Assembly (NCBI RefSeq): GCF_004153685.1
Contig: NZ_SDQD01000001.1
Location: forward strand, 310,001-374,000
Reading direction: 5' to 3'
DNA: 64,000 bases
Origin: Pollutimonas harenae
GTDB taxonomy: Bacteria; Pseudomonadota; Gammaproteobacteria; Burkholderiales; Burkholderiaceae_B
A program made the translations under genes and the position numbers. This document shows, piece by piece, positions 51,311 through 64,000 of this stretch. The stretch's first letter is position 1, and the number at the start of each line of letters is the position of its first letter. The notes beneath the pieces were generated by a model. It saw only the letters and a program-made list of their open reading frames with translations, searched no databases and was not told the DNA's origin.

Positions 51311-53404
51311 TCAATACGTGAGTTCAACCCCCATGAATACGCTGCGCCCCAGCCCCGGCGTATAAAGGGCCTTGCTGGCCAACTTGCGGGCATCCACAAC
51401 ATAGTCCGTCGAAGCGACATATGTTTTATCCAGCAGGTTTCTCATATCAATATATAAACGGAACCGCTCATCAGGACTATCGTACCCGGCACGAAAATGC
51501 AGCAGGCCATAGCCTGGAGCCTGCTCGGTATTAGCTTGGTCCACATCCCACCCCGATCCGAGTTCCAGTCCGGGGCCAGCATAATAGCCTTGCGGGTGCC
51601 GGTAGATCAGATCAAGCCGGCCTACATGACGCGGAATACCTGGCAGTGCATTATTGCCATATACCGAATCGTCTGAAAACCGGAAGTCATTGAATGTATA
51701 GGCCAAGGCCCACTCCAACCGGCCAGGAACCGTACCCAGATTTACCTCTCCTTTCAGCCCGGCTTCAAGGCCCTGATGAATGGTTCGGGGTGCATTGTGC
51801 GCAACGGTTATCCCCACGTTGCCCGGCAAATAGGTTTCTATCAGCTCATCGCGCACTTTTGCATGATATAGCGCGACATCCCAGCGCAAGGCATCGGTAC
51901 CACCTCGAGTACCGATCTCAAAGGTAGTGGCCCGCTGGGCATCAAGAATGCCATCGGGTGAAAAAAAGGCGACTGCGCTGGGCGGTTCGAAGCTGCGGCT
52001 CAGGTTGGCATACCATTGCGTAGTAGGCGTACTGTTCCAAACCAGGCCCAGCTTTGGGCTAAAGCCTTTGTACCGCGCCGTTGCCTGGCCATTGGCAAAA
52101 AAGCTGCGGGCCAAGGGCGAGACCTCATTGTCGGTGCTGCGCTGCGCCCACACCATCTGTGCTCCTGCCACCCAAGTAAGTGCCGGAGTCAACGCGTAGT
52201 GGTTTTCGAAGAACAGCTCGGCCTGAGACCGGCTGGTATCCAGATCCGCCTGCGGGCTGCCCTCAGGCGGCGCAAAAGGCGACACACTGGACATATCCGG
52301 CCAATAGGAGCGATTATGATCGTCGCCCCGCGAGTAAGACCCACCCCAGACTATTCGATTGTCATGTCCGGCCCAATGGCTCTTTATTTCTTGGCGCAAC
52401 GACATCCCGTAATCGATGGCATCGTAATTAATTTGCGAGGCCGTTCCCCATGAACTGAACTTCGTCCCCGTATGAAACAGACCTACCGCCAGGGTGTTGT
52501 CTGGCGAAAGTGCTATATCGTGCACATAGGCAAGATGCCAGCGCGGCGTCGTTCTGATATGAGCATCGACCATTTCAGACGCAGCATTGGCCTGCTGGGG
52601 ATCATCTTGCAGCTGATCATAGGTCAAGGCACCGGGCATAGTTACCCGATAGTATTCTTGCGTTACATGCAGCCGTCCCTTCGATACATCGCTGAACTGA
52701 TAACCGACATTGCCATAAAATCGCGACAGTTTGTAGTCGGAATGAGCACGATACCCATCTGATCGTGTGCTGCTCACTGACGCATAAGCATCCCAGCCAT
52801 CTGTGCCGGTCCATCCCCCCTCCAGCCGGCCTGACTTATAGCCATATGCCCCGCCTTCCAGGCGAGCCCTGAAACCCGAGCGCGTATAGCCTGTAGGCGA
52901 GACAAGATTCACTGCGCCCCCCAACGTAGCCACTCCGTATTGCATGGCATTGGCTCCGCGCAGTACCTCTATAAAGTCAGCAGCCAACGGGTCGGTATAA
53001 ATGCTATCTCCGACATCATCGGTACGCCCCAGTGGCAGGCCGTCGCGCAATAGGCGCACGCCTCGTGTACCAGAGGGTGAAGTGATACCCGAGCCTCTGA
53101 TGGATATACGGGCACTGATCTGGCCCGACGGATTCTGTGTATACACTCCTGGCGTTCTGGACAATGCGTCACTCATGCCCAGGACGGTGCCGTCACTATA
53201 TGACTCGATGGGAATCACTGATATATGGCCCGGCGCCGCACTGCGTTTGGCGTAAGCCTCTGACAAGGCTTGAACTTCAGCGCTGGGGGTAACGAGTACT
53301 GCCGGCAACTCAGCAGCCGACCCAGCTTGGGCCCACGCCGTTTTCTGAACCGGAGTTATCGCAGCAAGCAATACAGAATATACAAGCGAAGCACGGAGTG
53401 TCAT
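51311..53404 (-). CDS. TonB-dependent outer-membrane receptor
   Basis: A 697-residue receptor. Signal peptide (about 1-26, ending WAQ), plug domain at about 60-180 (DALSRTPGVYTQNPSGQISA, IRGSGI, GVRLLRDGLPLGRTDD), then a barrel with the closing strand VFMGVELTY. Resembles siderophore/metal receptors. I start at the ATG at 53404; the frame opens at 53458. A 250-base AT-rich spacer separates it from the divergent 7TMR-DISM kinase. Confidence 0.93.
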   Translation of the reverse strand: MTLRASLVYSVLLAAITPVQKTAWAQAGSAAELPAVLVTPSAEVQALSEAYAKRSAAPGHISVIPIESYSDGTVLGMSDALSRTPGVYTQNPSGQISARISIRGSGITSPSGTRGVRLLRDGLPLGRTDDVGDSIYTDPLAADFIEVLRGANAMQYGVATLGGAVNLVSPTGYTRSGFRARLEGGAYGYKSGRLEGGWTGTDGWDAYASVSSTRSDGYRAHSDYKLSRFYGNVGYQFSDVSKGRLHVTQEYYRVTMPGALTYDQLQDDPQQANAASEMVDAHIRTTPRWHLAYVHDIALSPDNTLAVGLFHTGTKFSSWGTASQINYDAIDYGMSLRQEIKSHWAGHDNRIVWGGSYSRGDDHNRSYWPDMSSVSPFAPPEGSPQADLDTSRSQAELFFENHYALTPALTWVAGAQMVWAQRSTDNEVSPLARSFFANGQATARYKGFSPKLGLVWNSTPTTQWYANLSRSFEPPSAVAFFSPDGILDAQRATTFEIGTRGGTDALRWDVALYHAKVRDELIETYLPGNVGITVAHNAPRTIHQGLEAGLKGEVNLGTVPGRLEWALAYTFNDFRFSDDSVYGNNALPGIPRHVGRLDLIYRHPQGYYAGPGLELGSGWDVDQANTEQAPGYGLLHFRAGYDSPDERFRLYIDMRNLLDKTYVASTDYVVDARKLASKALYTPGLGRSVFMGVELTY

Positions 53405-53654
53405 GAGCCCAGGAACGTTATCGGCATACAAATTGCCGCCAGCAAGAATGCAAAGCAATGTATTGTATAAAGTTGATCATTGTATTCATTTTGAATTAAG
53501 CTCGACTTTATTTGACAATTCGGCGCTCTTCGCACGATTTTGCATCAATGCAGTAAGATATATAGAAAAATTTAGAAAAACCACAGACAAGGCTCGCTGC
53601 AGCCCCTATGTCTTGCATACCTTACATGCTGGCATCGGAATCACAAAACTGGCC

Positions 53655-55979
53655 ATGAATCATTTCATTGATCGTTTCAACGACAATCGCTGGGGAGTGC
53701 TGTTTCAAATCACCATCGCCTTTATCCTGGGCGTAACAGCCTTAAGCAGTCAGGCTGCCACTGTTTTCGCGTCCTCGGCACAAGACTGGCCCATGGCCTT
53801 GCCTCAACAAGACATACTCGTCCATGAAGACCGCGATGCCCGAATGACACTGGCAGACGTCGTCACACTTGAGCGGGAGCATCCCGATCAATTCCAGCCG
53901 TTGGCCGCCACGGAATTGCCGGCATCCTCACGATCGGCATGGTGGTTCAAGCTCGACGTTGAAAATGAAAGCCTGAAAACGCTGGACCTGCGCCTGATAT
54001 TGAATGCTTCCATACGGGGCAGGGTTGACTACTACGTGCGCCAAGATGGCCAATGGCATCACACAGCCATGGGCGCCGGGATTCCTGTGGATGCTCGTAC
54101 GGCCCACACAGCCCGCAGACAGGCCTTGCCTTTCGTCATCGAGCCAAAGCAACGCACAAGCATTATTGCCCGGGTCAGCAGCGCAAGCCTGCTGGCCATC
54201 GAACCCCAACTGTATGACCGCCCTACTTACGAAGCTGGAGAGCAGAAATCCGCAATGTGGGCCGGGATCCTATTCGGAGGCATACTGGTACTGGCATGGG
54301 GCGCGCTACTGATCGCCGTGCTAAGCCGCAGCGTGAGTTTCGGCCTACTGGCCGTGTTGTGCATGACCACTGCAGTTTACGAGGCCTCGCGCAGAGGCTA
54401 CACCAAAATCTATCTCTGGCCTGAGGCCAGCGACTGGGCACTACGCAGTTCACCATTTCTCGGGTTTACCGCAGCAACCCTGGTACTGACTTTCATACTG
54501 GCTATTGCACGTCTGGAAGCTGTACACATACCTGGCCGAAAACTGATCGTGGCAATCATTTGCTTTCAGGCATTTACCGGATTGACCGGGCTGTTTGGAG
54601 ATGTCTACTGGGCGACGCAGCTCACGCCGTTTGCCATGGCCCTGTACGCCATCGGCGCCGTCAGTTGTGCGGTGCTGCTGCTCAGGGCGTCTGTACCCGG
54701 CAGCCGCTTCTTGATCATAGCCGGGCTATTCATTGCTTCCCATACTTTGCTGCGACTGCTGGAGCAAATAGGGTGGTTGCCACAAGTCGCTTCCGACCTT
54801 GGGTTTCATTCCCCGGGCGACAACACCATCTTGGCTCTGGCACGGCTGGGCATCAACATCAGCGTACTGACCGCCTGGATCATGATCATCGCCAGACAGC
54901 GCAGGGACGCCAATAATGAATTGATACGCATGCGTGAAAGCGAACGGGACAGACTCAAAGAACAAGTGGCTATCCAGACCGAAGCCCTGAACCGCTCTCT
55001 GCAATACGCGAACGAGGAAAATCGCAGAAAAACAGAAACGCTAAGCTACGTAGGGCACGATTTACGCGCGCCGTTAGCCACTATCGTGGGGTACACCCGC
55101 TTGCTTTCAGCTAACGCCACACCTACCCAGGAAGCACATATCAATGCCATTGAACGCAGCGCAAACTACCAGATGTCATTAATCGACGAAATCGTTGACT
55201 ATGCGCGGCACGAACAGCCCACCCCACTCGATATAACAATGGAATCCACCTCGCTGCGCGAATTGCTGAACAACATTATGCAGCATGCGGAGGCTTTGGC
55301 CCGGCACCAGAACAACCGCCTGGCATTGCACGCGCAAACGCCCCTACCCACCATGATCAAGACCGATCACAAGCGCTTGCAGCAAGTATTGCTGAACTTG
55401 ATTTCAAATGCTGCCAAATTCACACGAAATGGATATATACACCTTGCCATTGGCTTACAGCGCTCACAGGAAGAAACAGAGCTGGTGTTTCATGTCGAGG
55501 ACTCGGGGGCAGGCATAGCGCCAGCACATCAACATTCGATTTTTGACGCCTACACACAGCTTGATGCGCGTCCGGGCAGCGCGGGGCTGGGTCTTCATAT
55601 TGCCCAACGTATCATCAAGAATATGAACGGCAGGATTAGCCTGGACAGCCGCCCTGGCGAAGGCAGCCGTTTCAGTCTTCATATACCCGTTGAACTGCTA
55701 ACTGAAGACACCATGCAAATTGACGATATCGTTGCTGCGACTCGCCCTGAAGACGAGCAGTACCACTTGCTCAGCACACAGCAAATACCGCCGGTGGAAC
55801 TTCGTGTGGACCTTGCCAAGTTTGCGCGAGAAGGAGAGCTGAGCAGCATAGAGCACTGGCTCAGTCAGCAAACAACAGCCCATCCCAGCTGTGCGCCCTT
55901 CTTCAGCCTTGTACAACAGGCGCTGAAAGCCCTGGATTTTGACCGTATCGAAACATTGGCACTGGCAAACACCAAATGA
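53655..55979 (+). CDS. 7TMR-DISM sensor histidine kinase
   Basis: A 774-residue kinase. Signal/TM region at about 1-40, periplasmic DISMED2-like beta-sandwich (about 40-195, YVRQDGQWHHTAMG), seven hydrophobic segments between about 205 and 410, coiled coil, then HisKA with GHDLRAPLATI (His468) and HATPase (NLISNAAKFT, GLGLHIAQRIIK). A C-terminal tail of about 90 residues follows. I choose the ATG at 53655 because the preceding 84 codons have no signal or domain. Overlaps the next gene by ATGA. Likely senses a carbohydrate or small ligand. Confidence 0.9.
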   Translation: MNHFIDRFNDNRWGVLFQITIAFILGVTALSSQAATVFASSAQDWPMALPQQDILVHEDRDARMTLADVVTLEREHPDQFQPLAATELPASSRSAWWFKLDVENESLKTLDLRLILNASIRGRVDYYVRQDGQWHHTAMGAGIPVDARTAHTARRQALPFVIEPKQRTSIIARVSSASLLAIEPQLYDRPTYEAGEQKSAMWAGILFGGILVLAWGALLIAVLSRSVSFGLLAVLCMTTAVYEASRRGYTKIYLWPEASDWALRSSPFLGFTAATLVLTFILAIARLEAVHIPGRKLIVAIICFQAFTGLTGLFGDVYWATQLTPFAMALYAIGAVSCAVLLLRASVPGSRFLIIAGLFIASHTLLRLLEQIGWLPQVASDLGFHSPGDNTILALARLGINISVLTAWIMIIARQRRDANNELIRMRESERDRLKEQVAIQTEALNRSLQYANEENRRKTETLSYVGHDLRAPLATIVGYTRLLSANATPTQEAHINAIERSANYQMSLIDEIVDYARHEQPTPLDITMESTSLRELLNNIMQHAEALARHQNNRLALHAQTPLPTMIKTDHKRLQQVLLNLISNAAKFTRNGYIHLAIGLQRSQEETELVFHVEDSGAGIAPAHQHSIFDAYTQLDARPGSAGLGLHIAQRIIKNMNGRISLDSRPGEGSRFSLHIPVELLTEDTMQIDDIVAATRPEDEQYHLLSTQQIPPVELRVDLAKFAREGELSSIEHWLSQQTTAHPSCAPFFSLVQQALKALDFDRIETLALANTK

Positions 55980-56794
55980 ACAACACGCTTGCTCAACCCG
56001 CAGAAGCCACCCCACATCTGCTGATTATCGATGACCGTCTGGATGAGCTGCGCCTATTGATAGACGTTGTTCGAGGACAGGGGTACAGACTCAGTATCGC
56101 GTTCGATGGCGCACAAGGATACCAGCGCGCCCAAGCCTTACAGCCAGATCTGATCCTGCTTGACGTGCATATGCCGGTTATGAATGGATTCGATGCGAGC
56201 CGCCTGCTTCAAAGCGACCCTGCGACCTCACACATCCCGATTATTTTCCTGACATCGGCCAGTGATCTGGACTCCCGACTAGAGGGTTTGACCAGCGGTG
56301 GCGTAGATTATGTCATCAAGCCATTCGAGCAGGAAGAAGTGCTGGCACGCATACGGATTCACCTGAAAAGCAAGAACTCACAAGAACCTCAGGAGGCCGT
56401 CAAGCCCGGGGGACGGAGTCAAAAAGACATGACCTTGGTCAAGGCGGCCTGCAGCTACCTGAGCACCCGTCTGTCTAAACCACCCACCCAGGAAAAACTG
56501 GCCCAAGCCCTGAACACTAATGAAAAAAGACTAATACGCGCATTTCGGAAAGAGCTCAACCTGACCGTGTTTGAATACATTCGTGAGCAACGCATCAAAC
56601 AGGCATCCCAAATGCTGCTGGAGACCTCTTTGTTAATCATCGAGATCGCGGAAGAGCTGGGTTTTTCCAGCCCTGCCAATTTTGCGACGGCGTTCAGGGC
56701 TCAAGTGGGCATCACACCTTCAGAATTTCGCGAGCACGGTGGCGGGCCACCCGCCACCTTAACGGATATCAACGATTCTGCATCAATCGAATGA
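55976..56794 (+). CDS. Response regulator with AraC-type output domain
   Basis: A 272-residue regulator: receiver (D19/D20, phospho-acceptor D63 in LILLDVHMPVMNG, K near 114 in VIKPFEQ) followed by an AraC double-HTH at about 160-255 (NLTVFEYIREQRIKQASQML; IAEELGFSSPANFATAFRA). Translationally coupled to the kinase. Its HTH region closely resembles the AraC fragment at 63749, and both flank the trimeric adhesin, the probable target. Confidence 0.92.
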   Translation: MNNTLAQPAEATPHLLIIDDRLDELRLLIDVVRGQGYRLSIAFDGAQGYQRAQALQPDLILLDVHMPVMNGFDASRLLQSDPATSHIPIIFLTSASDLDSRLEGLTSGGVDYVIKPFEQEEVLARIRIHLKSKNSQEPQEAVKPGGRSQKDMTLVKAACSYLSTRLSKPPTQEKLAQALNTNEKRLIRAFRKELNLTVFEYIREQRIKQASQMLLETSLLIIEIAEELGFSSPANFATAFRAQVGITPSEFREHGGGPPATLTDINDSASIE

Positions 56795-57314
56795 TGGCCT
56801 GTGTATGGGCAGGCCCTTGCGTGCTGACCAACAAACGGCCATCGGAAATGACCTCGCCGATTTTCGCCACACTTACCAGTTGCCCCTGCACGCTCAACAG
56901 CAGGAAATTTCCTCTGGCTTGCTCGGTGACATTACGCAGCTTTGCAATGCCGTACTGATTCATTTCCAGCAACAGGAAAGTCTTCCGATCTTGGGCTGTA
57001 ACGGGCGACACACGTGCAATATCGCCTTGCGTCAGCACAGGTTGCGGCAAGGCATACAGCGGCGCATCTCCACCCGCATCGACCGGTATCAACGAGGGTT
57101 CCTGGCGTTGCTGCGCCAGATGCACAGTAATCACCGCGCTGGATTGCGGCCGCGATGCCGCTGCAGGAGGAGCAACCGGCATCTGGGCGTTCTCGCCCCT
57201 GACCACAGGTGGTATCGGATCAACAGGAGCCGGATAATGGCCAGGCGCAGTGGTCTGACAGGCAGCAAGCGTGGCCGTCAACATCAAGCCTATCAGTTTG
57301 AACATGAGCTTCAT
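56769..57314 (-). CDS. Lipoprotein of unknown function
   Basis: A 181-residue lipoprotein. Signal MKLMFKLIGLMLTATLAAC with lipobox LAAC (C19), a proline-rich linker (APVDPIPPVVRGENAQMPVA) and a strand-rich C-domain (FLLLEMNQYGIAKLRNV, FLLLSVQGQLVSVAKIG). Starts eight bases after the stop of the BamE-like gene and probably shares its transcript. The 3' end overlaps the convergent response-regulator gene by 26 bases. Near the adhesin, possibly an assembly helper. Confidence 0.7.
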   Translation of the reverse strand: MKLMFKLIGLMLTATLAACQTTAPGHYPAPVDPIPPVVRGENAQMPVAPPAAASRPQSSAVITVHLAQQRQEPSLIPVDAGGDAPLYALPQPVLTQGDIARVSPVTAQDRKTFLLLEMNQYGIAKLRNVTEQARGNFLLLSVQGQLVSVAKIGEVISDGRLLVSTQGPAHTQAIIRLMQNR

Positions 57315-57322
57315 ATCGGTAC

Positions 57323-57709
57323 CTATCTACTCACCACGTTGGCACACTCTGCGGGAGCCCAGTAGAAGCTGCGTCCAATCTTGTCATTATCGAAAAGCAC
57401 TTTGAATTGACAAGTCTTGCGACCCTCAGGCGTATTGAAATGGAACAAGTAGTCCCATTCGCGTACCTGGAAGCCTTCCGCAAAATGCGGACGACCCAGC
57501 AGGTCGTAGAGCTGGTCTCGTGTGACACCATCGCCAACCTGACGCAGATTGCTGATATTTGGGTATGAACCCGTGTGAAACGAAGTATCTTCGGCATCCG
57601 GAAATACCGGATTATCTGTCTTGCCCTCGGCGTCCACTTTACTCAAGGTGCCGCAGCCTGCCAGTGCAACACTGGCCAGCAGCACGGTTCCAATCAATAT
57701 CTTGTTCAT
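57323..57709 (-). CDS. BamE/SmpA-domain lipoprotein
   Basis: A 128-residue lipoprotein: signal MNKILIGTVLLASVALAGC (C19), then a SmpA/OmlA (BamE-like) domain with VGDGVTRDQLYDLLGRPHFA, VREWDYLFHFNTPEG and CQFKVLFDNDKIGRSFYW. It lies directly behind the trimeric autotransporter gene. BamE helps outer-membrane protein insertion; SadB-like lipoproteins assist trimeric adhesins in other species, so a dedicated helper is plausible (inference). ATG at 57709. Confidence 0.82.
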   Translation of the reverse strand: MNKILIGTVLLASVALAGCGTLSKVDAEGKTDNPVFPDAEDTSFHTGSYPNISNLRQVGDGVTRDQLYDLLGRPHFAEGFQVREWDYLFHFNTPEGRKTCQFKVLFDNDKIGRSFYWAPAECANVVSR

Positions 57710-57740
57710 AAACTTAAAATCCTTTAAATATAGGCGTGAT

Positions 57741-57766
57741 GTGTCGGCCGGCCTTCCGGCCGACAC
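57741..57766. terminator. Perfect 11-bp hairpin after the trimeric adhesin gene
   Basis: GTGTCGGCCGG (57741-57751), CCTT loop, CCGGCCGACAC (57756-57766), between the adhesin stop and the BamE-like gene. No T-run. It probably lowers read-through or protects the mRNA end, so the lipoproteins can be made at a different level. Confidence 0.6.
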
Positions 57767-57784
57767 ATTCTTGACTTGGGGTTA

Positions 57785-60700
57785 TTACCACTGATAGCCG
57801 ACGCCTACGGCACCGCCGTAGTCACCGCGGGACGTTGCGTTACCCGACAGCTTGTAGACCCAATGACCGTTGTCTGAGATACCCGAGAAGCCAATCGCCA
57901 TACCCGATTCACTGTTCCAGGTGCCGCCGGCCATGGACATCATGGTCTTGCCTGGCAGATAAGCTTGGGGCAACGCAGCCGTTGCCATGGCCGCCGCTAC
58001 ACCGCCGCTCAGCCTCTTGTCCTGACGGCGCAGGTCGCCGCGCAGATCATTCACCTGATTCTGCAGGTTGCCTGCAGTCTGTTGCAGTTGGCCAACGTTG
58101 ACGGCATCCTTTTCATCTACACCCGGCGCAACATTGGTAATGCGGTTGTCCGCCATATTGATGCCCTTCTCATCAATGATCGGGCCGCCGTTGTTGATCT
58201 CAATCCGGTCCGCCTTGACCTGACCCGCATTGATATTCACCGCCGTGATGGAATTGACGGAGATATCCTGAGCCATGGCAACCTTGATATCCGCACCAGT
58301 GCCACTGGGCCGGTCGGCCTTGGAGATGACAATGTTGTTGCCTGCCACAAAGCCCACGGTGTTGCCATTGCTGATAGGTGTGGGGCTGTCACTCCCGACA
58401 CCACCCACGTCGCCATGAGACTTGCCAGGGCCATCTGAACCGCTCGTCCCGTCTGGACCACCAGTATCTCCCGAACCACCACCAGAATTTTCGGGCGCAG
58501 GAACTTCGATGTTCCATTGCATGCTGTCAAGCGCCGCCTGCAGTGTTGGGTGATTTTGGCCGTTGTAGCTGAAAGTGCCGTCATTATTGAGCGCAACAAA
58601 GTCGGTGACCGGTTTGAGCTGCTCTTCTGTTGCTGCGCGGCCAGACCCATCGCCAAAGCCTGGGTAGTTGATGGTCTGGTTTTGCAAACCGCTGATGACG
58701 CCAGTTTTACCTCCAATCACGATAGGAAAGGAACCACCCACTACGACCTGAGTTGGCTCAATAGTGGTGATATTTCCGCTGTTATCAGCAAGCGCAATCG
58801 CTCCCGAGCCTATGCTGGTCAAGGTACCTGCTGCCGTGTCATTGACCGTCAACCCGGTGCTATTCATCACTGTATTGCCCGTCGCAACACTGTCAAACAC
58901 CACATCTTTGGCCAATTCGATCTCAATGCCATCAGCGGTTGTGCGTGTAATGACATTCTCGCCACTGGTATCTGCTGCCGGAGTTGTGTCAGCCATACCA
59001 CCACGGATTGCCAAGGTCTGACCCAAGTCGCGATGCACATCTGCCCCATCGTTAGCCGAAAAATTCAGGCCAGTGCTGGTTACGTCCTGCACAGCATTAT
59101 TGAGATCGCCCGCATTGACCGCATTGAATGCGTTGTTTACATCCTTGTAGTCGCCTGCACTCGCCACGTTCTTGATCTGAGTGCCGCCCGTCATGGTGGT
59201 CAACCCAGTGCTCGAATCCTGCGTAGCGTTGCCAGTATCGCCTGCCATCGTCACCACGTTGTAGTTGACGGTGGTGCCGTCCGGATTCAAGTCATACTTG
59301 ACTGCCCGGTCATCCAGTGTCTTCGTTTCATCGCGCGCCAGTTGAAGCTGCTCTTCCGTAGCCGCCCGACCCGCTTTGCCGAAGTCTGCGGCATCCAGAT
59401 CCCTGTTAGCCAGGCCCGTGATATCACCGCTAGTACCGTTGATAGTGATGGTGTTCGAACCACCAGCCACCGTCACCACGCCAGCACCCACTGTCGTGGT
59501 CCCGGTGCTGCCGCTCACCGTGGTTCCCAATGCTGTCGTCGTGGTCGTATTGGCACCGTCGCTCACCGTCAAGCCACGGGTGTTCATCACACTATTACCC
59601 GTCTTTACACTGCCGTCGACACCCAGGTCGATGTCCTTGCTCAGCTTAATCGCAAGTGTATCGGTGCCGTTGGCCACCACACCGATGTTACCGTCGGTCA
59701 ACGTAGCCGCGTCAGTTGCTCCACCAGTCAAGTTCACTGTCTGGCCCAATTGACGTGCAACATCGCTACCGCTGTCCCCTGCAAAAGTCAGGGGGGTATC
59801 GGCCAGATCATCCACCGCACCATCCACATACGTCTTGTTCGTGATGTGGTTACCCTCGGTGATTGGTCCAGTGTAATAGGCTCCGCCACTGTTGATCTCA
59901 AAGTTGGGACCCAGCTGGGTATTACCTTCGACCGTCAAATTGTTGGTGGTGACGCTATCTCCGTTGATCACGGTATCGCCAACAGTAATGCTGTTACCTA
60001 TATCGAGATCGTCAGCCAGATTGAACGCCAGGTCAGTGCCTGTACGGCTGATCACGACGTTGCTATCGGTATTGCTGAAGTCAACCGAGCCGCCCGGCGC
60101 TACGTTCGCACTGGCACCACCCTGAGTGCTGACATCCCAGCCCTGCCCCACATAGGTCAGCGCATCCTGAACGTTGGTATAAGTGTTGCCCTGAACAGAC
60201 AAGCCGGCAATCACGGTATGCAGGGCGGGGTCGTATACGGATGTACCGCCCAATGCAGCAGCAACACTCTGTCCTGCGGTGTCCAGATTATTGCCCAGAG
60301 CGGTCACTGCCGTATTGGTCTGGAACAACTGACTGCCGTTGATGGCATCGGTGCTGGTTGAGCTAACACGACCTGCTGCCACATTGGTGATAGTGCGCTC
60401 TGCCCCCACATCACCCACACTCACGGTAGCTAGCGGCGCAGTACCGGCGTAGTTATAAGTGATCTTGTCAATCGTGGTGCTGGAAGTTCCTATTGGCGCT
60501 GTCGTGATTGCGCCACTGCCCAAGGCTACTGAATTTTGATGCATGGCTTGAGCGCCTTGGCCAAATGCAGATGCATTCAATGCAGTAGCACGAGCGGCCG
60601 ATCCGACTGCTAATGCATCGTCGGCCGTAGCTGCCGCGGCATCGCCCACTGCAGTAGCGGACTCGGCTCGCGCATTAGCCGATACACCTAACGCCAGCGC

Positions 60701-63469
60701 GTTTTCGTAATCAGCCAATGCATGATCACCAATCGCTATACTCCTGCGATTACGCGCCGCTTCTTCGGCCAAAGGGCTGGCGAGTCCGGACACTGCTCCA
60801 GTTCCTAATGCGATACCGTCGGCAGCGTAGCCGCGCGCACCGGTTCCGCTGGCGATCGCGTTATAGCCGCTAGCCTGGGCACCCGTACCGCTGGCCTGTG
60901 CGTTCTCACCGCTGGCGCTAGCATCCGTCCCGCTGGCCTGTGAGCTGACGCCACTGGCGCGTGAACGTGTGCCAATGGCTACGGCATCATCCGCCATGGC
61001 ATGAGCATCGTAGCCTTGGGCCACTGCACGCTCCGCAGAAGCCAGCGCACTCTGACCAATAGCGATGCCGTCGTCAGCGGTAGCTTCTGCACTAGTACCA
61101 ATCACAATAGCGTTATCAACCGTACCACTGGACTTGGGATCAGATTCTGCGCCGGTTCCCATAACAATAGAGTTCTGGCCGCGGCTAACAGCCAATTGGC
61201 CAATGGCCACACCACCCTGATCATAGGCATGACTGGAATTGCCCAGCACTGTCGAGTACTTCGCCCGGGCACTTACGTCATAACCAATGGCAACGGCCTC
61301 GTTCGCTCCATCAGTTGTCCTGGCTGCATTGCCAATAGCTAGTGAGGAGTCGCCATCCGCAACTGCTGCCGGACCAACGGCCATAGCATTTGCACCCGTG
61401 GCGCCGTCATTGATGCGGTTGGCAGCAATGTTGGTATTGGCGCTGAAGTATTTGACGCCATTCTCGGCGACTGCTTCATTCAACTGCTCGACATTGACGG
61501 CATCGGTGGCGTTAATGCCTGCCGCCACGTTGCTGATTCCACCTGCTGTGTTATAGCGTACGGCATCGACTGGCAGAATATCCACAGTGCCGCTAGTCAC
61601 AGCGCCAATGGCGTCAACTACAGTATTGAACTGCACATCGTTGCCACCCGCATCCTTCACAGTAATAGGACTGAAGGTTCCATCTGCATTGACTGCAACG
61701 CTGCCACCAATCAAGGTCGCGACCGATTGCTGGGCACCTCGCAATTGGCGAACGTTAACGGCGTCATATCCCTGTGCACCGTCGGCCACGTTGACGATAC
61801 GGCGCTGCAGGCCACTATTTGTATTGCCTACCGACACGGCGGAGCCTGGAGCTGCCTCGCCTGTCAGGTATCCACTGCCATTGAGGTCAGAAGTTCGAGC
61901 AGCAGAGTTACGTCCCAGCGCAATACTGTTGCCATCGGCCCAGGCGTGAGCACCCATGGCAACACCGTTACCCTCGGCACCAGCATCCTTGCCCAGTGCC
62001 AGCGTCTCGCTGCCTATTGCCCGGGCTCCATCGCCCACGGCTACCGAGTCGGATCCGGCGCGCGTATTTGCACCAATCGCAATGGATTGTGCCCTGCTTC
62101 CGGCGCCATTGTTGGCGCCAACGCCGATGGCGATGTTGTTATTGCCGCTAATCCCCCCGCCAGCGTTGGTTCCCAGCGCAATATTGTCATCGCCCGTTAC
62201 GCTAGAGCCGGCTTTATAGCCGATTGCAATGCTTTGATTACCAACCACTGTTTGACCTGCGCTGGTACCAATAGCAATATGGTCTGTGCGGTCTCCTGCC
62301 GCATTGCCTTCTGTGCCGACACCAGCGTTAACCCCCAGCGCAATACTGTTGGCTGTACCGGCATAGGCGCCTGTGCCTGCGGCGAGGGCGCTACCAGCCG
62401 TCGCAATAGACTGTCCTATCGCGATGCTGCCCGCCCCCGACGCGGATGCGCCGGCGCCGAGTGCAGTTGCATCCGTAGCGCCAGCCTTCGCAGCGGCACC
62501 AACGGCTGTAGCACGAGCCGCACTCGCATGGGCCTCGTGGCCCAGTGCCATCGCTTGATCGCTTGCTGCGCCACTGACCCTTGCTCCAGTGCCTATCGCT
62601 GCCGCATTACTGATGCGCATATCTTCTACCTTAGCGCCATCACCCAATGCCAGGGTGCTATTGCCGCTGGCTTGGCTATCGCGACCGATAGCGATAGAAC
62701 CTGCACCATCAGCCATCGTTGCACCCACGGTACCTGCCGTTGCGCCATGTCCCAAAGCAATGGCATCTTCAGCGGTTTCGGTAGTGGACGCGCCTAAACC
62801 AGCAGCAACACTGGCTTGACCTGCCGAGACGGCTTCGGCCCCAATGGCTATGGAGTCGACGCCAGCGGCATCGGAGTCTGTCAGCGTGGAGTTAGTGTGG
62901 AAATATTTGACGCCATCTCCCTGGGTATAAAGCCTCTGTTCCAGGGTGGTGATATCGCTCTTGTTGGCACTGATCCGCGCATTATGATCCGCAATGTCAG
63001 TGGTGTGCCCACTCACCGTCGAATTTAAGGCGGTGATGGCTCCTTCATTGATGGCGACTCTAGCAGTGACATCCGTCAGTTCTTGCGTAGTGGTATACAG
63101 CTGTCCGGTCGTAGCGGCACTAGTGCCATCGGCTGTTAGCGCCACGACCGACAGGCCGCTGATTGTTCCGCCATCTGCAAAATTTATATTACCAGCGCCA
63201 ATGCTGAATTCAATACTGTTTCCGCTCACGGCCTGCTCGTTGCCTACGGTCACATCAGCCAGCGCAGGAATACTTGCGCCCACCAACCCCGCCCCTGACA
63301 ACACAATAGCACCCCATGCCAGCACACCGCGAAACTTGGCGCTTGACGATGTTGCGCCACCCACTACAGAAGAACTTCCCGAACGCTTGCCGCGTGTATT
63401 TGTCAGCTCGGAAACAGCGACAAACGTGCGTGTTTGCTCATTCCAAACCGTTTTGTAAATTCGATTCAC
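57785..63469 (-). CDS. Trimeric autotransporter adhesin (type Vc, YadA-like)
   Basis: A 1894-residue adhesin. Extended signal peptide (MNRIYKTVWNEQTRTFVAVS) with cleavage near ALA|D (about 72). Head domains rich in YadA/Hep_Hag 14-residue repeats (AIGxxAxASGxxSxAxG) at about 190-570 and 690-1030. GIN/neck sequences such as VNAGQLNNAV (variants of DAVNVxQL) recur. Stalk about 1030-1650, a glycine/serine/proline-rich linker about 1655-1700, and a coiled-coil plus membrane anchor of about 75 residues ending GAVGVGYQW. GTG start with GGGAAAG upstream. Flanked by an AraC-output response regulator and an AraC gene. Confidence 0.95.
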   Translation of the reverse strand: MNRIYKTVWNEQTRTFVAVSELTNTRGKRSGSSSVVGGATSSSAKFRGVLAWGAIVLSGAGLVGASIPALADVTVGNEQAVSGNSIEFSIGAGNINFADGGTISGLSVVALTADGTSAATTGQLYTTTQELTDVTARVAINEGAITALNSTVSGHTTDIADHNARISANKSDITTLEQRLYTQGDGVKYFHTNSTLTDSDAAGVDSIAIGAEAVSAGQASVAAGLGASTTETAEDAIALGHGATAGTVGATMADGAGSIAIGRDSQASGNSTLALGDGAKVEDMRISNAAAIGTGARVSGAASDQAMALGHEAHASAARATAVGAAAKAGATDATALGAGASASGAGSIAIGQSIATAGSALAAGTGAYAGTANSIALGVNAGVGTEGNAAGDRTDHIAIGTSAGQTVVGNQSIAIGYKAGSSVTGDDNIALGTNAGGGISGNNNIAIGVGANNGAGSRAQSIAIGANTRAGSDSVAVGDGARAIGSETLALGKDAGAEGNGVAMGAHAWADGNSIALGRNSAARTSDLNGSGYLTGEAAPGSAVSVGNTNSGLQRRIVNVADGAQGYDAVNVRQLRGAQQSVATLIGGSVAVNADGTFSPITVKDAGGNDVQFNTVVDAIGAVTSGTVDILPVDAVRYNTAGGISNVAAGINATDAVNVEQLNEAVAENGVKYFSANTNIAANRINDGATGANAMAVGPAAVADGDSSLAIGNAARTTDGANEAVAIGYDVSARAKYSTVLGNSSHAYDQGGVAIGQLAVSRGQNSIVMGTGAESDPKSSGTVDNAIVIGTSAEATADDGIAIGQSALASAERAVAQGYDAHAMADDAVAIGTRSRASGVSSQASGTDASASGENAQASGTGAQASGYNAIASGTGARGYAADGIALGTGAVSGLASPLAEEAARNRRSIAIGDHALADYENALALGVSANARAESATAVGDAAAATADDALAVGSAARATALNASAFGQGAQAMHQNSVALGSGAITTAPIGTSSTTIDKITYNYAGTAPLATVSVGDVGAERTITNVAAGRVSSTSTDAINGSQLFQTNTAVTALGNNLDTAGQSVAAALGGTSVYDPALHTVIAGLSVQGNTYTNVQDALTYVGQGWDVSTQGGASANVAPGGSVDFSNTDSNVVISRTGTDLAFNLADDLDIGNSITVGDTVINGDSVTTNNLTVEGNTQLGPNFEINSGGAYYTGPITEGNHITNKTYVDGAVDDLADTPLTFAGDSGSDVARQLGQTVNLTGGATDAATLTDGNIGVVANGTDTLAIKLSKDIDLGVDGSVKTGNSVMNTRGLTVSDGANTTTTTALGTTVSGSTGTTTVGAGVVTVAGGSNTITINGTSGDITGLANRDLDAADFGKAGRAATEEQLQLARDETKTLDDRAVKYDLNPDGTTVNYNVVTMAGDTGNATQDSSTGLTTMTGGTQIKNVASAGDYKDVNNAFNAVNAGDLNNAVQDVTSTGLNFSANDGADVHRDLGQTLAIRGGMADTTPAADTSGENVITRTTADGIEIELAKDVVFDSVATGNTVMNSTGLTVNDTAAGTLTSIGSGAIALADNSGNITTIEPTQVVVGGSFPIVIGGKTGVISGLQNQTINYPGFGDGSGRAATEEQLKPVTDFVALNNDGTFSYNGQNHPTLQAALDSMQWNIEVPAPENSGGGSGDTGGPDGTSGSDGPGKSHGDVGGVGSDSPTPISNGNTVGFVAGNNIVISKADRPSGTGADIKVAMAQDISVNSITAVNINAGQVKADRIEINNGGPIIDEKGINMADNRITNVAPGVDEKDAVNVGQLQQTAGNLQNQVNDLRGDLRRQDKRLSGGVAAAMATAALPQAYLPGKTMMSMAGGTWNSESGMAIGFSGISDNGHWVYKLSGNATSRGDYGGAVGVGYQW

Positions 63470-63505
63470 TTTCTTTCCCTAGTATTCAAAGTCAACACCT
63501 CTCCC

Positions 63506-63529
63506 TCGCAAAAAAAATGCGATTTTTTT
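63506..63529. repeat. A/T-homopolymer hairpin in the adhesin leader
   Basis: TCGCA-A7-TGCGA followed by T7 on the plus strand, 37-60 bases before the adhesin start codon. Reads as a Rho-independent terminator on the plus strand, but no plus-strand gene enters it. On the adhesin mRNA it places homopolymers of 7-8 bases in the 5' untranslated region. Confidence 0.45.
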
Positions 63530-63569
63530 CATTAATGAGAGGGCCGCGACACGCTTAAAAAATTCGGGC

Positions 63570-63587
63570 GTGTCAAAGTGGTGACAC
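63570..63587. promoter_or_regulatory. Candidate operator upstream of the adhesin gene
   Basis: GTGTCA-N6-TGACAC, a perfect 6-bp dyad about 100 bases before the adhesin start codon. A possible site for one of the two AraC-domain regulators or another dimeric factor. Confidence 0.35.
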
Positions 63588-63748
63588 TATGAGATAAATG
63601 GGCAAGGGCAACTTTTCCGTTTTCACCAAAAAGCTTTGAAAACCGGACAACCACTACAAAACAATTGTTAATTTTTCTAAATATTAAAATTTTGAAGTGC
63701 GTCTAAAACCCTGCGGACATATGCAGACATGTGAATTTATTTTGCCAA

Positions 63749-64000
63749 TTAGCGAGAACACATATCGTCGTAGGTCTGGGTTTCGCGAAAGGCGGAAGGC
63801 GTCTTTCCCCAGAATTGCCGGAACGCGGTCGAAAAATTTGCCGCACTCGAATAGCCAACCTCCGCCACAATATCCAGCATGCTCAAGTCTGTCTGGATAA
63901 GCAGGCGAGCCGCCTTGCGCATCCGCTCACGACGGATGTACTCGAACACAGACATTCCCACGCTCGATTTGAAGGCTGCCATGATTCGACGCTCGGACAC
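63749..64000 (-). CDS. AraC-family regulator, C-terminal part (5' end outside window)
   Basis: 83 codons of an AraC double-HTH: SVGMSVFEYIRRERMRKAAR, MLDIVAEVGYSSAANFSTAF, WGKTPSAFRE. The reading frame is open to the window edge, so the sensory N-terminus is not visible. It is upstream of the trimeric adhesin on the same strand. The HTH closely matches that of the response regulator at 55976-56794. Confidence 0.9.
   Translation of the reverse strand: MSERRIMAAFKSSVGMSVFEYIRRERMRKAARLLIQTDLSMLDIVAEVGYSSAANFSTAFRQFWGKTPSAFRETQTYDDMCSR

Follow-up and report, generated by a model that had tools for sequence, protein, structure and literature searches.

A predicted direct-repeat operator shared by the promoters of a trimeric autotransporter adhesin operon and a neighbouring receiver-AraC regulator in Pollutimonas harenae

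We analyzed a 64,000-nucleotide stretch of Pollutimonas harenae DNA (C1:310001-374000 of the 3.37-Mb genome G000; hereafter the window), which carries the gene of a trimeric autotransporter adhesin (TAA) between two response regulator genes, denoted RR1 and RR2, whose products combine a receiver with an AraC-type helix-turn-helix (HTH) domain. The main finding is a pair of 8-bp direct repeats with a 21-bp period, which ends 19 bp before a -10-like hexamer and lies upstream of both the TAA and the RR2 gene. In AraC-family operators, a half-site is repeated in tandem and in direct orientation beside the -35 region, with a spacing of some two helical turns; the tandem direct arrangement, the 21-bp period and the 19-bp distance to the hexamer agree with this layout. 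On sequence grounds we consider it probable, though by no means assured, that RR2 is a kinase-uncoupled, promoter-proximal AraC-type activator of the adhesin operon and of its own gene.

The original prediction, made from the letters of the window, held that a response regulator at 55976 (RR1) and a partial AraC protein at 63749 bracket the 1894-residue adhesin and two lipoprotein-like genes. Gene order and domains bear out the bracketing; the second protein, read beyond the window edge in the genome, proved to be a full 289-amino-acid (aa) receiver-AraC response regulator that the edge cuts. The features are as follows, in window numbering.

51311-53458, minus strand: TonB-dependent receptor, divergent from the histidine kinase
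53655-55979, plus strand: histidine kinase, 774 aa, with a 7TMR-DISMED2 sensor, 7TM, HisKA and HATPase_c
55976-56794, plus strand: RR1, 272 aa, receiver and AraC HTH, directly after the kinase gene with a 4-bp overlap
56769-57314, minus strand: LipA, small protein with a lipoprotein-like start
57323-57766, minus strand: LipB, lipoprotein-like start (probable ATG at 57709), corresponding to the BamE half of a TpgA-like lipoprotein
57785-63469, minus strand: TAA, 1894 aa, GTG start; extended signal peptide region (ESPR), YadA stalk, heads and anchor
63570-63587, no strand: palindrome GTGTCA-N6-TGACAC, overlapping the end of the -10-like hexamer
63586-63591, minus strand: CATAGT, the -10-like hexamer of the TAA promoter; the second half-site is 19 bp away
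63611-63639, minus strand: predicted TAA-promoter operator, half-sites 63632-63639 (TCAAAGCT) and 63611-63618 (GGAAAAGT), 21-bp period
63749-64000, minus strand: RR2, in-window part (AraC HTH); the gene continues to C1:374618 (64618)
64382-64384, minus strand, beyond the window: Glu codon at the acceptor position of RR2
64687-64715, beyond the window: predicted operator of RR2 itself, with a -10-like hexamer at 64662-64667

The likeness of the two promoters came out of an intergenic alignment with the sister species (G001), the sole congener with the locus among the three other genomes of the genus (g1) that were compared (G001, G002 and G003). The best ungapped 54-bp match between the DNA upstream of the TAA and of RR2 has 36 identical positions in G000 and 32 in G001, and 0 of 300 dinucleotide shuffles reached it in either species. 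All four sites of the genus are equally long from the first repeat to the hexamer, and leaving each site out in turn yielded scores of 33.0-46.9 bits versus 11.8-17.5 bits for the best other place in the same sequences. Allowing up to three mismatches, the motif occurs at two places in G000 and two in G001, all of them TAA or RR2 promoters, and at none in G002 and G003, which have no TAA match; a looser skeleton without mismatches returns the same four sites and one place in G002. The kinase-RR1 promoter has no such site in G000 or G001 (p 0.38 and 0.89), and by this measure the kinase-RR1 pair is not under the predicted operator. Neither the TAA nor the RR2 promoter was reported by a sigma-70 consensus scan, as expected if the -35 region is poor; the TAA transcript is predicted to begin a few bases downstream of 63586. 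The idea of a shared operator within the locus thus stands in an altered form, as a predicted element that joins the promoters of the TAA and of RR2. Distinct operators outside the locus had been named as evidence against the idea; for the element found here, both strict sites of the genome lie inside it.

The palindrome at 63570-63587, which had been put forward as the shared binding site, is a different element from the predicted operator and is ruled out in that role by its absence from the RR2 promoter. It is perfect, occurs once in the genome, recurs at the homologous place in G001 with a changed spacer, and is not a direct-repeat site of the AraC type. Its left arm is found in two of the three TAA promoters read in another genus (g14), with GTGTCC in the third, and its right arm does not recur. 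We regard it as a candidate site for a second regulator; as it overlaps the end of the -10-like hexamer, a repressor could act there.

Next we consider the recurrence of the predicted operator in other genera. A 54-bp matrix built from the g1 sites alone was run over 54 other loci (one being a second copy of another). Its four best matches lie 56-174 bp upstream of TAA frames in g14 (G105, G126, G199) and g2 (G004), and the fifth-best lies at a regulator gene in g59 (G115). The sites of these three genera have the clearest repeats, and the cross-genus consensus approximates TCAAARGT-N13-TCAAAAGT. Conversely, a matrix built without g1 and applied to the window and two further loci (L001 and L042; 103 kb with overlap) placed the TAA site of G000 first (27.8) and its RR2 site second (26.1), followed by the TAA site of G001 (21.2), the next unrelated place scoring 18.3. 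Matrices built without g14 or without g2 likewise recovered the TAA sites of these genera near the top. Further sites lie upstream of TAAs in G061 and G121, and in G016 a predicted operator is found 91 bp upstream of a fimbrial subunit gene. The same repeat geometry, with the related half-site TTAAAAGC, precedes fimbrial genes beside kinase-linked regulators in G126 and G199; these two sites are weak when taken alone (p 0.04 and 0.18).

The spacing to the promoter is fixed as well. In 17 of the 18 sites outside g1, the second half-site is followed at exactly 19 bp by a hexamer of the form NANNNT; no other offset between 5 and 44 has one in more than 5 of 18. Twelve of these sites were found without use of the hexamer, and 11 of the 12 carry it at 19 bp. 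The 18 sites were picked by score and some come from close relatives, so that they do not amount to 18 independent events.

The predicted site is present at 10 of 10 TAAs with a family regulator just upstream versus 1 of 35 others (G061). Seven of the ten contributed to the matrix (G000, G001, G105, G126, G199, G004 and G115); the remaining three (G121, G099 and G191) belong to g2. The specificity test behind these counts took 40 further TAA starts from ten genera, of which four at contig ends (L283, L300, L304 and L306) were dropped. Two of the remaining 36, those of G191 and G099, adjoin a regulator and combine the site with a hexamer at 19 bp. This combination is absent from the other 34, which together with G061 make up the 35. 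In G121, G191 and G099, moreover, a second TAA, which goes with a TpgA gene and has no adjacent regulator, lacks the site. When 68 upstream segments were tested singly, seven gave the lowest attainable p (0.005); a handful of others came to 0.05, about the number expected by chance in 68 tests.

Genome-wide pattern searches were less specific. A relaxed repeat pattern with up to one mismatch matched 34 places in 268 genomes versus 49 for the reversed pattern and as a whole is no evidence. Three of its four exact matches fall on TAA or regulator promoters of the module (G004, and G115 twice) and one elsewhere (G006); of its 30 one-mismatch places, one is a TAA promoter of the module (G199). The looser skeleton matched 64 places, eight of them module promoters, versus 24 for the backward pattern; in G000, G001, G105, G115 and G061 it had no match outside module promoters. 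The patterns of a genome scan with short peptides were too general, and only L064, L066 and L071 of its 80 loci were used.

Two groups of loci carry such sites at other places. In g2, an identical one-mismatch repeat site lies away from the TAAs in five genomes (L217-L221; G140, G191, G099, G121 and G193), which could be a second regulator target or merely conserved DNA. At L210 (G189 C1:392000-411900), a regulator has the operator downstream, and no TAA match is listed for G189; this is possibly a locus that lost its adhesin.

The original prediction also stressed a very similar HTH region in the two regulators. This holds as a family resemblance. RR1 and RR2 score highest among the ten HTH_18 matches of the genome, and their second recognition helices are nearly the same (SSPANFATAFR in RR1, SSAANFSTAFR in RR2). 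It does not hold beyond the family level: their HTH identity of 44.4% equals the median over all pairs of 65 homologues, RR2 ranks 41st of 64 for RR1 and RR1 44th of 64 for RR2, and the GFSS/GYSS..ANF.TAFR motif is widespread across the family. The first recognition helices differ (TNEKRL in RR1 versus VSERRI in RR2). In a tree of 63 of the 65 sequences, which leaves out an HTH-only fragment and a regulator apparently with another output domain, RR1 clusters with its G001 counterpart and a G020 sequence (support 99), and RR2 clusters with the TAA-adjacent g14 regulators, the two fimbria-flanking regulators of G016 and others (10 sequences, SH-aLRT 95). Because the identity is only the family median and the tree groups are separate, RR1 and RR2 are, as far as sequences tell, two old branches of one family; identity ranking and tree rule out sister domains from a recent duplication. 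Across genera, the predicted operator goes with regulators of the RR2 branch or of a relative of that branch.

The receivers of the two regulators differ in their phosphorylation residues. RR1 has an intact set (DD, D, T and K) together with an AraC HTH and an adjoining kinase. In RR2 the acceptor residue, Asp in most relatives, is Glu, as seen in the family alignment, in the alignment with PDB 12aw_A and in the codon (GAG); RR2 lacks a phosphorylatable Asp, is classed as a pseudo-receiver regulator, and keeps the receiver Thr and Lys. Its G001 orthologue retains the acceptor Asp (GAT) and has the switch Thr replaced by Ala. Given the Glu at the acceptor and the loss of the switch Thr in the sister orthologue, RR2 seems not to be coupled to the kinase. 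A comparison of the two species shows RR1 to be about 90% identical in receiver and HTH alike. For RR2 the values are 70% for the receiver, 49% for the linker and 88% for the HTH; on these figures, the receiver of RR2 is drifting and its DNA-binding half is not. Across the family, six of the 41 regulators that have no kinase gene within 400 bp carry acceptor Glu, versus 0 of the 22 that have one ("kinase-adjacent"), and the six fall in four separate places of the tree. In G004, of g2, the site occurs together with a TAA and a degenerate regulator, and a search at E up to 1e-60 gave no close homologue of the kinase. According to the available portions of a review, Glu is the residue most often found where a receiver lacks the acceptor Asp, and it may or may not mimic phosphorylation (PMC12632262; also PMC4395418).

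From these features we infer the following mechanism. RR2 would bind the two tandem 8-bp half-sites with the downstream copy against the -35 region, and the bound protein would directly activate the TAA-lipoprotein operon. It would also activate its own gene, which would give positive feedback. With the Asp replaced by Glu and with Thr and Lys retained, RR2 may be kept in an active-like state, so that its amount would matter more than its phosphorylation and would set adhesin output. The kinase and RR1 would be a normal two-component pair across the operon and the most likely supplier of a signal, which could enter through altered RR2 expression or through joint action with RR2 at both promoters. 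An input from RR1 is suggested by the shared second helix, by the joint presence or absence of the genes in the genus and by the weak sites of the same geometry at the kinase-linked fimbrial loci; the different first recognition helix and the lack of the link in other genera speak against it. The two-input switch of adhesion that had been proposed is plausible insofar as two regulators and a kinase are present, but RR1 and RR2 would not be equal inputs, RR2 being without the acceptor Asp.

Several observations weigh against this role of RR2. The second half-site is degenerate in g1. With the matrix lacking g1, the RR2 site of G001 was not among the eight matches listed, and the matrix lacking g59 recovered the two sites of that genus weakly (20.9 and 14.8, with an unrelated place at 14.2). 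The three regulator-adjacent TAAs outside the matrix are close relatives in one genus. The best promoters of non-adjacent TAAs score 21.4 (G185, AT-rich) and 19.4 (G242, a genome in which the regulator gave no match at the threshold used), neither having the hexamer at 19 bp. None of the five promoters of TAA-adjacent regulators tested in g14 and g2 has the site (p 0.14-0.88), and autoregulation is therefore seen only in g1 and g59. The TAA-adjacent regulator of G115 is very divergent and the site-bearing TAA of G061 has no adjoining regulator, so that another family member would have to act in these genomes. The Glu of RR2 is not conserved, its sister orthologue having Asp. Receivers are intact in 22 of 22 kinase-adjacent regulators versus 15 of 41 others, a contrast that is strong by simple count and not significant once relatedness is allowed for; the tree offers 2 to 6 independent contrasts for the question, and we give the numbers as description only. 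Finally, Pfam and NCBIfam resolve the function of the regulators no further than the domain level.

Close to the original prediction is a switch in which phosphorylated RR1 and RR2 either compete for the same two operators or bind them as a heterodimer, and adhesion depends on both the kinase signal and RR2. The nearly identical second recognition helices and the common repeat geometry at the G126 and G199 fimbrial genes beside kinase-linked regulators fit such a scheme, as do the two strict sites, the only ones in the genome, and their absence from the kinase-RR1 promoter; coincidence detection by heterodimers of atypical regulators is, moreover, known for WhiI/BldM, in the accessible part of PMC12632262. 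We nevertheless regard it as rather unlikely, in view of the differing first recognition helices, the placement of RR1 in another clade, the lack of a kinase-RR1 pair beside the TAA in the g2 and g14 loci read, and the weakness of the two fimbrial sites on their own. It seems similarly doubtful that the kinase and RR1 have another target, such as the TonB-dependent receptor (51311-53458), and stand beside the adhesin by chance in this genus. The kinase promoter has no operator, and in G000 and G001 the gene running divergently from the kinase encodes a TonB receptor; in G061 and G115 a TonB receptor gene separates regulator and kinase. On the other hand, the TAA of G115 has a kinase gene and another regulator gene no more than about 8 kb away, and kinase, RR1, RR2, TAA and BamE lipoprotein occur together in two g1 genomes and were not found in the other two, a pattern that a single gain or loss would explain.

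It is improbable that another regulator reads the shared element, such as the stand-alone AraC HTH protein at C2:658084, with RR2 a bystander. The stand-alone protein does have a related HTH, and in g14 the space between regulator and TAA contains small AraC HTH proteins, but HTH-only matches in frames of comparable length (172 and 182 aa) also exist in G002 and G003, where the g1-type operator was not found; the site therefore tracks RR2 and the TAA and not the C2:658084 protein. We give very little credence to the remaining explanation, that the promoter likeness is a functionless leftover of a promoter duplication. The TAA and RR2 promoters within the genome are as alike as the orthologous TAA promoters of the two species (36 of 54 positions in both comparisons), yet sites in other genera and at a fimbrial promoter show the same repeat period and the same 19-bp distance to the hexamer. 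Activation by RR2 of its own gene and the adhesin operon may also be one case of something wider. Tentatively, and with considerable reserve, one operator code could be reused by the receiver-AraC regulators of this bacterial family for unrelated adhesins, TAAs as well as chaperone-usher fimbriae, the HTH half and the operator staying fixed while the receiver repeatedly drifts from kinase control; here, a phosphorylatable and a Glu-locked paralogue would meet on the same two promoters as an adhesion coincidence detector.

To our knowledge, the mechanism that switches on a TAA is known in few bacteria. The locus offers a concrete predicted operator with base-pair coordinates that recurs in several genera. 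It further supplies two regulator paralogues as a natural pair, of which one seems to be coupled to the kinase and the other does not, which makes the control of pseudo-receiver regulators testable in a small system. It also provides a sequence rule for locating adhesin targets of the receiver-AraC family in other genomes. Among the literature matches listed, titles and abstract beginnings contained nothing on receiver-AraC regulators of TAAs in this bacterial family.

WhiI and BldM, which we take not to be receiver-AraC proteins, resemble RR1 and RR2, as does CmrRST, in mechanism only: as far as the available text of PMC12632262 goes, a phospho-independent regulator acts there beside another regulator or a two-component system, through heterodimers or expression level. 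The Burkholderia cenocepacia region BCAM0218-BCAM0228 is described in the accessible part of PMC3404963 as holding three TAAs, an outer-membrane lipoprotein gene, two histidine kinases and three regulators, a proposed TAA-controlling signal cascade. Compared by description only, it shares with our locus the clustering of TAA, lipoprotein, kinase and regulators; its described kinase has another sensor type, whereas the kinase here is of the 7TMR-DISM type, and neither an operator nor an uncoupled receiver figures in that description. The same receiver-AraC module occurs in the hybrid two-component systems of Bacteroides (the genus being named in PMC11253607), where kinase and regulator are fused rather than separate. 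The best PDB sequence match of RR2 is 12aw_A, a "hybrid two-component system protein" (E 6.8e-28). In Pseudomonas aeruginosa, the PvrSR/RcsCB genes beside cupD likewise place two-component genes with an adhesin cluster, there chaperone-usher fimbriae, a likeness drawn from the partial description in PMC3842833 only.

The adhesin has the domains of a trimeric autotransporter adhesin (type Vc), with matches over cut-off to PF03895, PF05662, PF05658 and PF13018 (YadA-type anchor, stalk, head repeats and extended signal peptide); trimer formation and adhesion are predicted from these. Its YadA anchor is the sole one found in the genome. The gaps within the TAA-LipB-LipA series are 18 and 8 bp. LipA has no Pfam family scoring over cut-off, and its homologues adjoin TAAs in G001, G004, G061, G115, G121, G126 and G199. 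The LipA and RR1 genes are convergent and overlap by 26 bp (56769-56794), which could lead to transcriptional interference of the kinase operon with the adhesin operon.

LipB matches PF04355 (BamE/SmpA-like) over cut-off and so has the N-terminal part of TpgA, as a lipoprotein beside a TAA. Its sole NCBIfam match is the TpgA model NF047726, over model positions 3-131 of 268 and at 60.9 bits versus a cut-off of 350; the frame ends after the BamE part, with no C-terminal OmpA-like peptidoglycan-binding half, and by sequence LipB would not count as a TpgA equivalog. The G001 copy has both halves and, at 146.5 bits, is also under the cut-off. Among the 85 homologues listed besides the query (the window's own copy included), 65 have both halves, 12 mainly the BamE half and 8 the other half. 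In Acinetobacter, the TAA gene (AtaA/Ata) is followed by the TpgA gene and the presence of the two is tightly linked, according to the part of PMC6363060 available; the order of TAA and TpgA-type gene is the same here, and LipB differs in having the BamE-like half only, below the model cut-off.

The kinase start was set at 53655, the first coordinate of the original prediction; the longest open reading frame begins at 53403. A Pfam search gives no receiver domain in the kinase, and its orthologue in G001 is 68-69% identical. The TonB receptor gene is divergent from it in both species. Within the genus, the bracketing of the TAA by the two regulators is common to G000 and G001; in G002 and G003, no match was obtained, at the thresholds used, for the adhesin anchor, the kinase, the receiver-AraC regulators or the BamE lipoprotein.

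Related arrangements occur elsewhere in the family. At L045 (G016 C12:30000-49900), two receiver-AraC regulators bracket a chaperone-usher fimbrial operon, the same layout with another type of adhesin. Three g6 loci (L195, L199 and L200) contain tandem receiver-AraC regulators with a repeat site between them and one degenerate receiver per pair. In g14 (L174, L197 and L204), a stand-alone AraC HTH gene encoding 136-156 aa stands between the regulator and the TAA, so that AraC domains cluster there too. At L044 (G021 C1:3611000-3630900), a kinase-linked family regulator adjoins HlyD-type secretion genes and the gene of a giant Ig-like/VWA protein.

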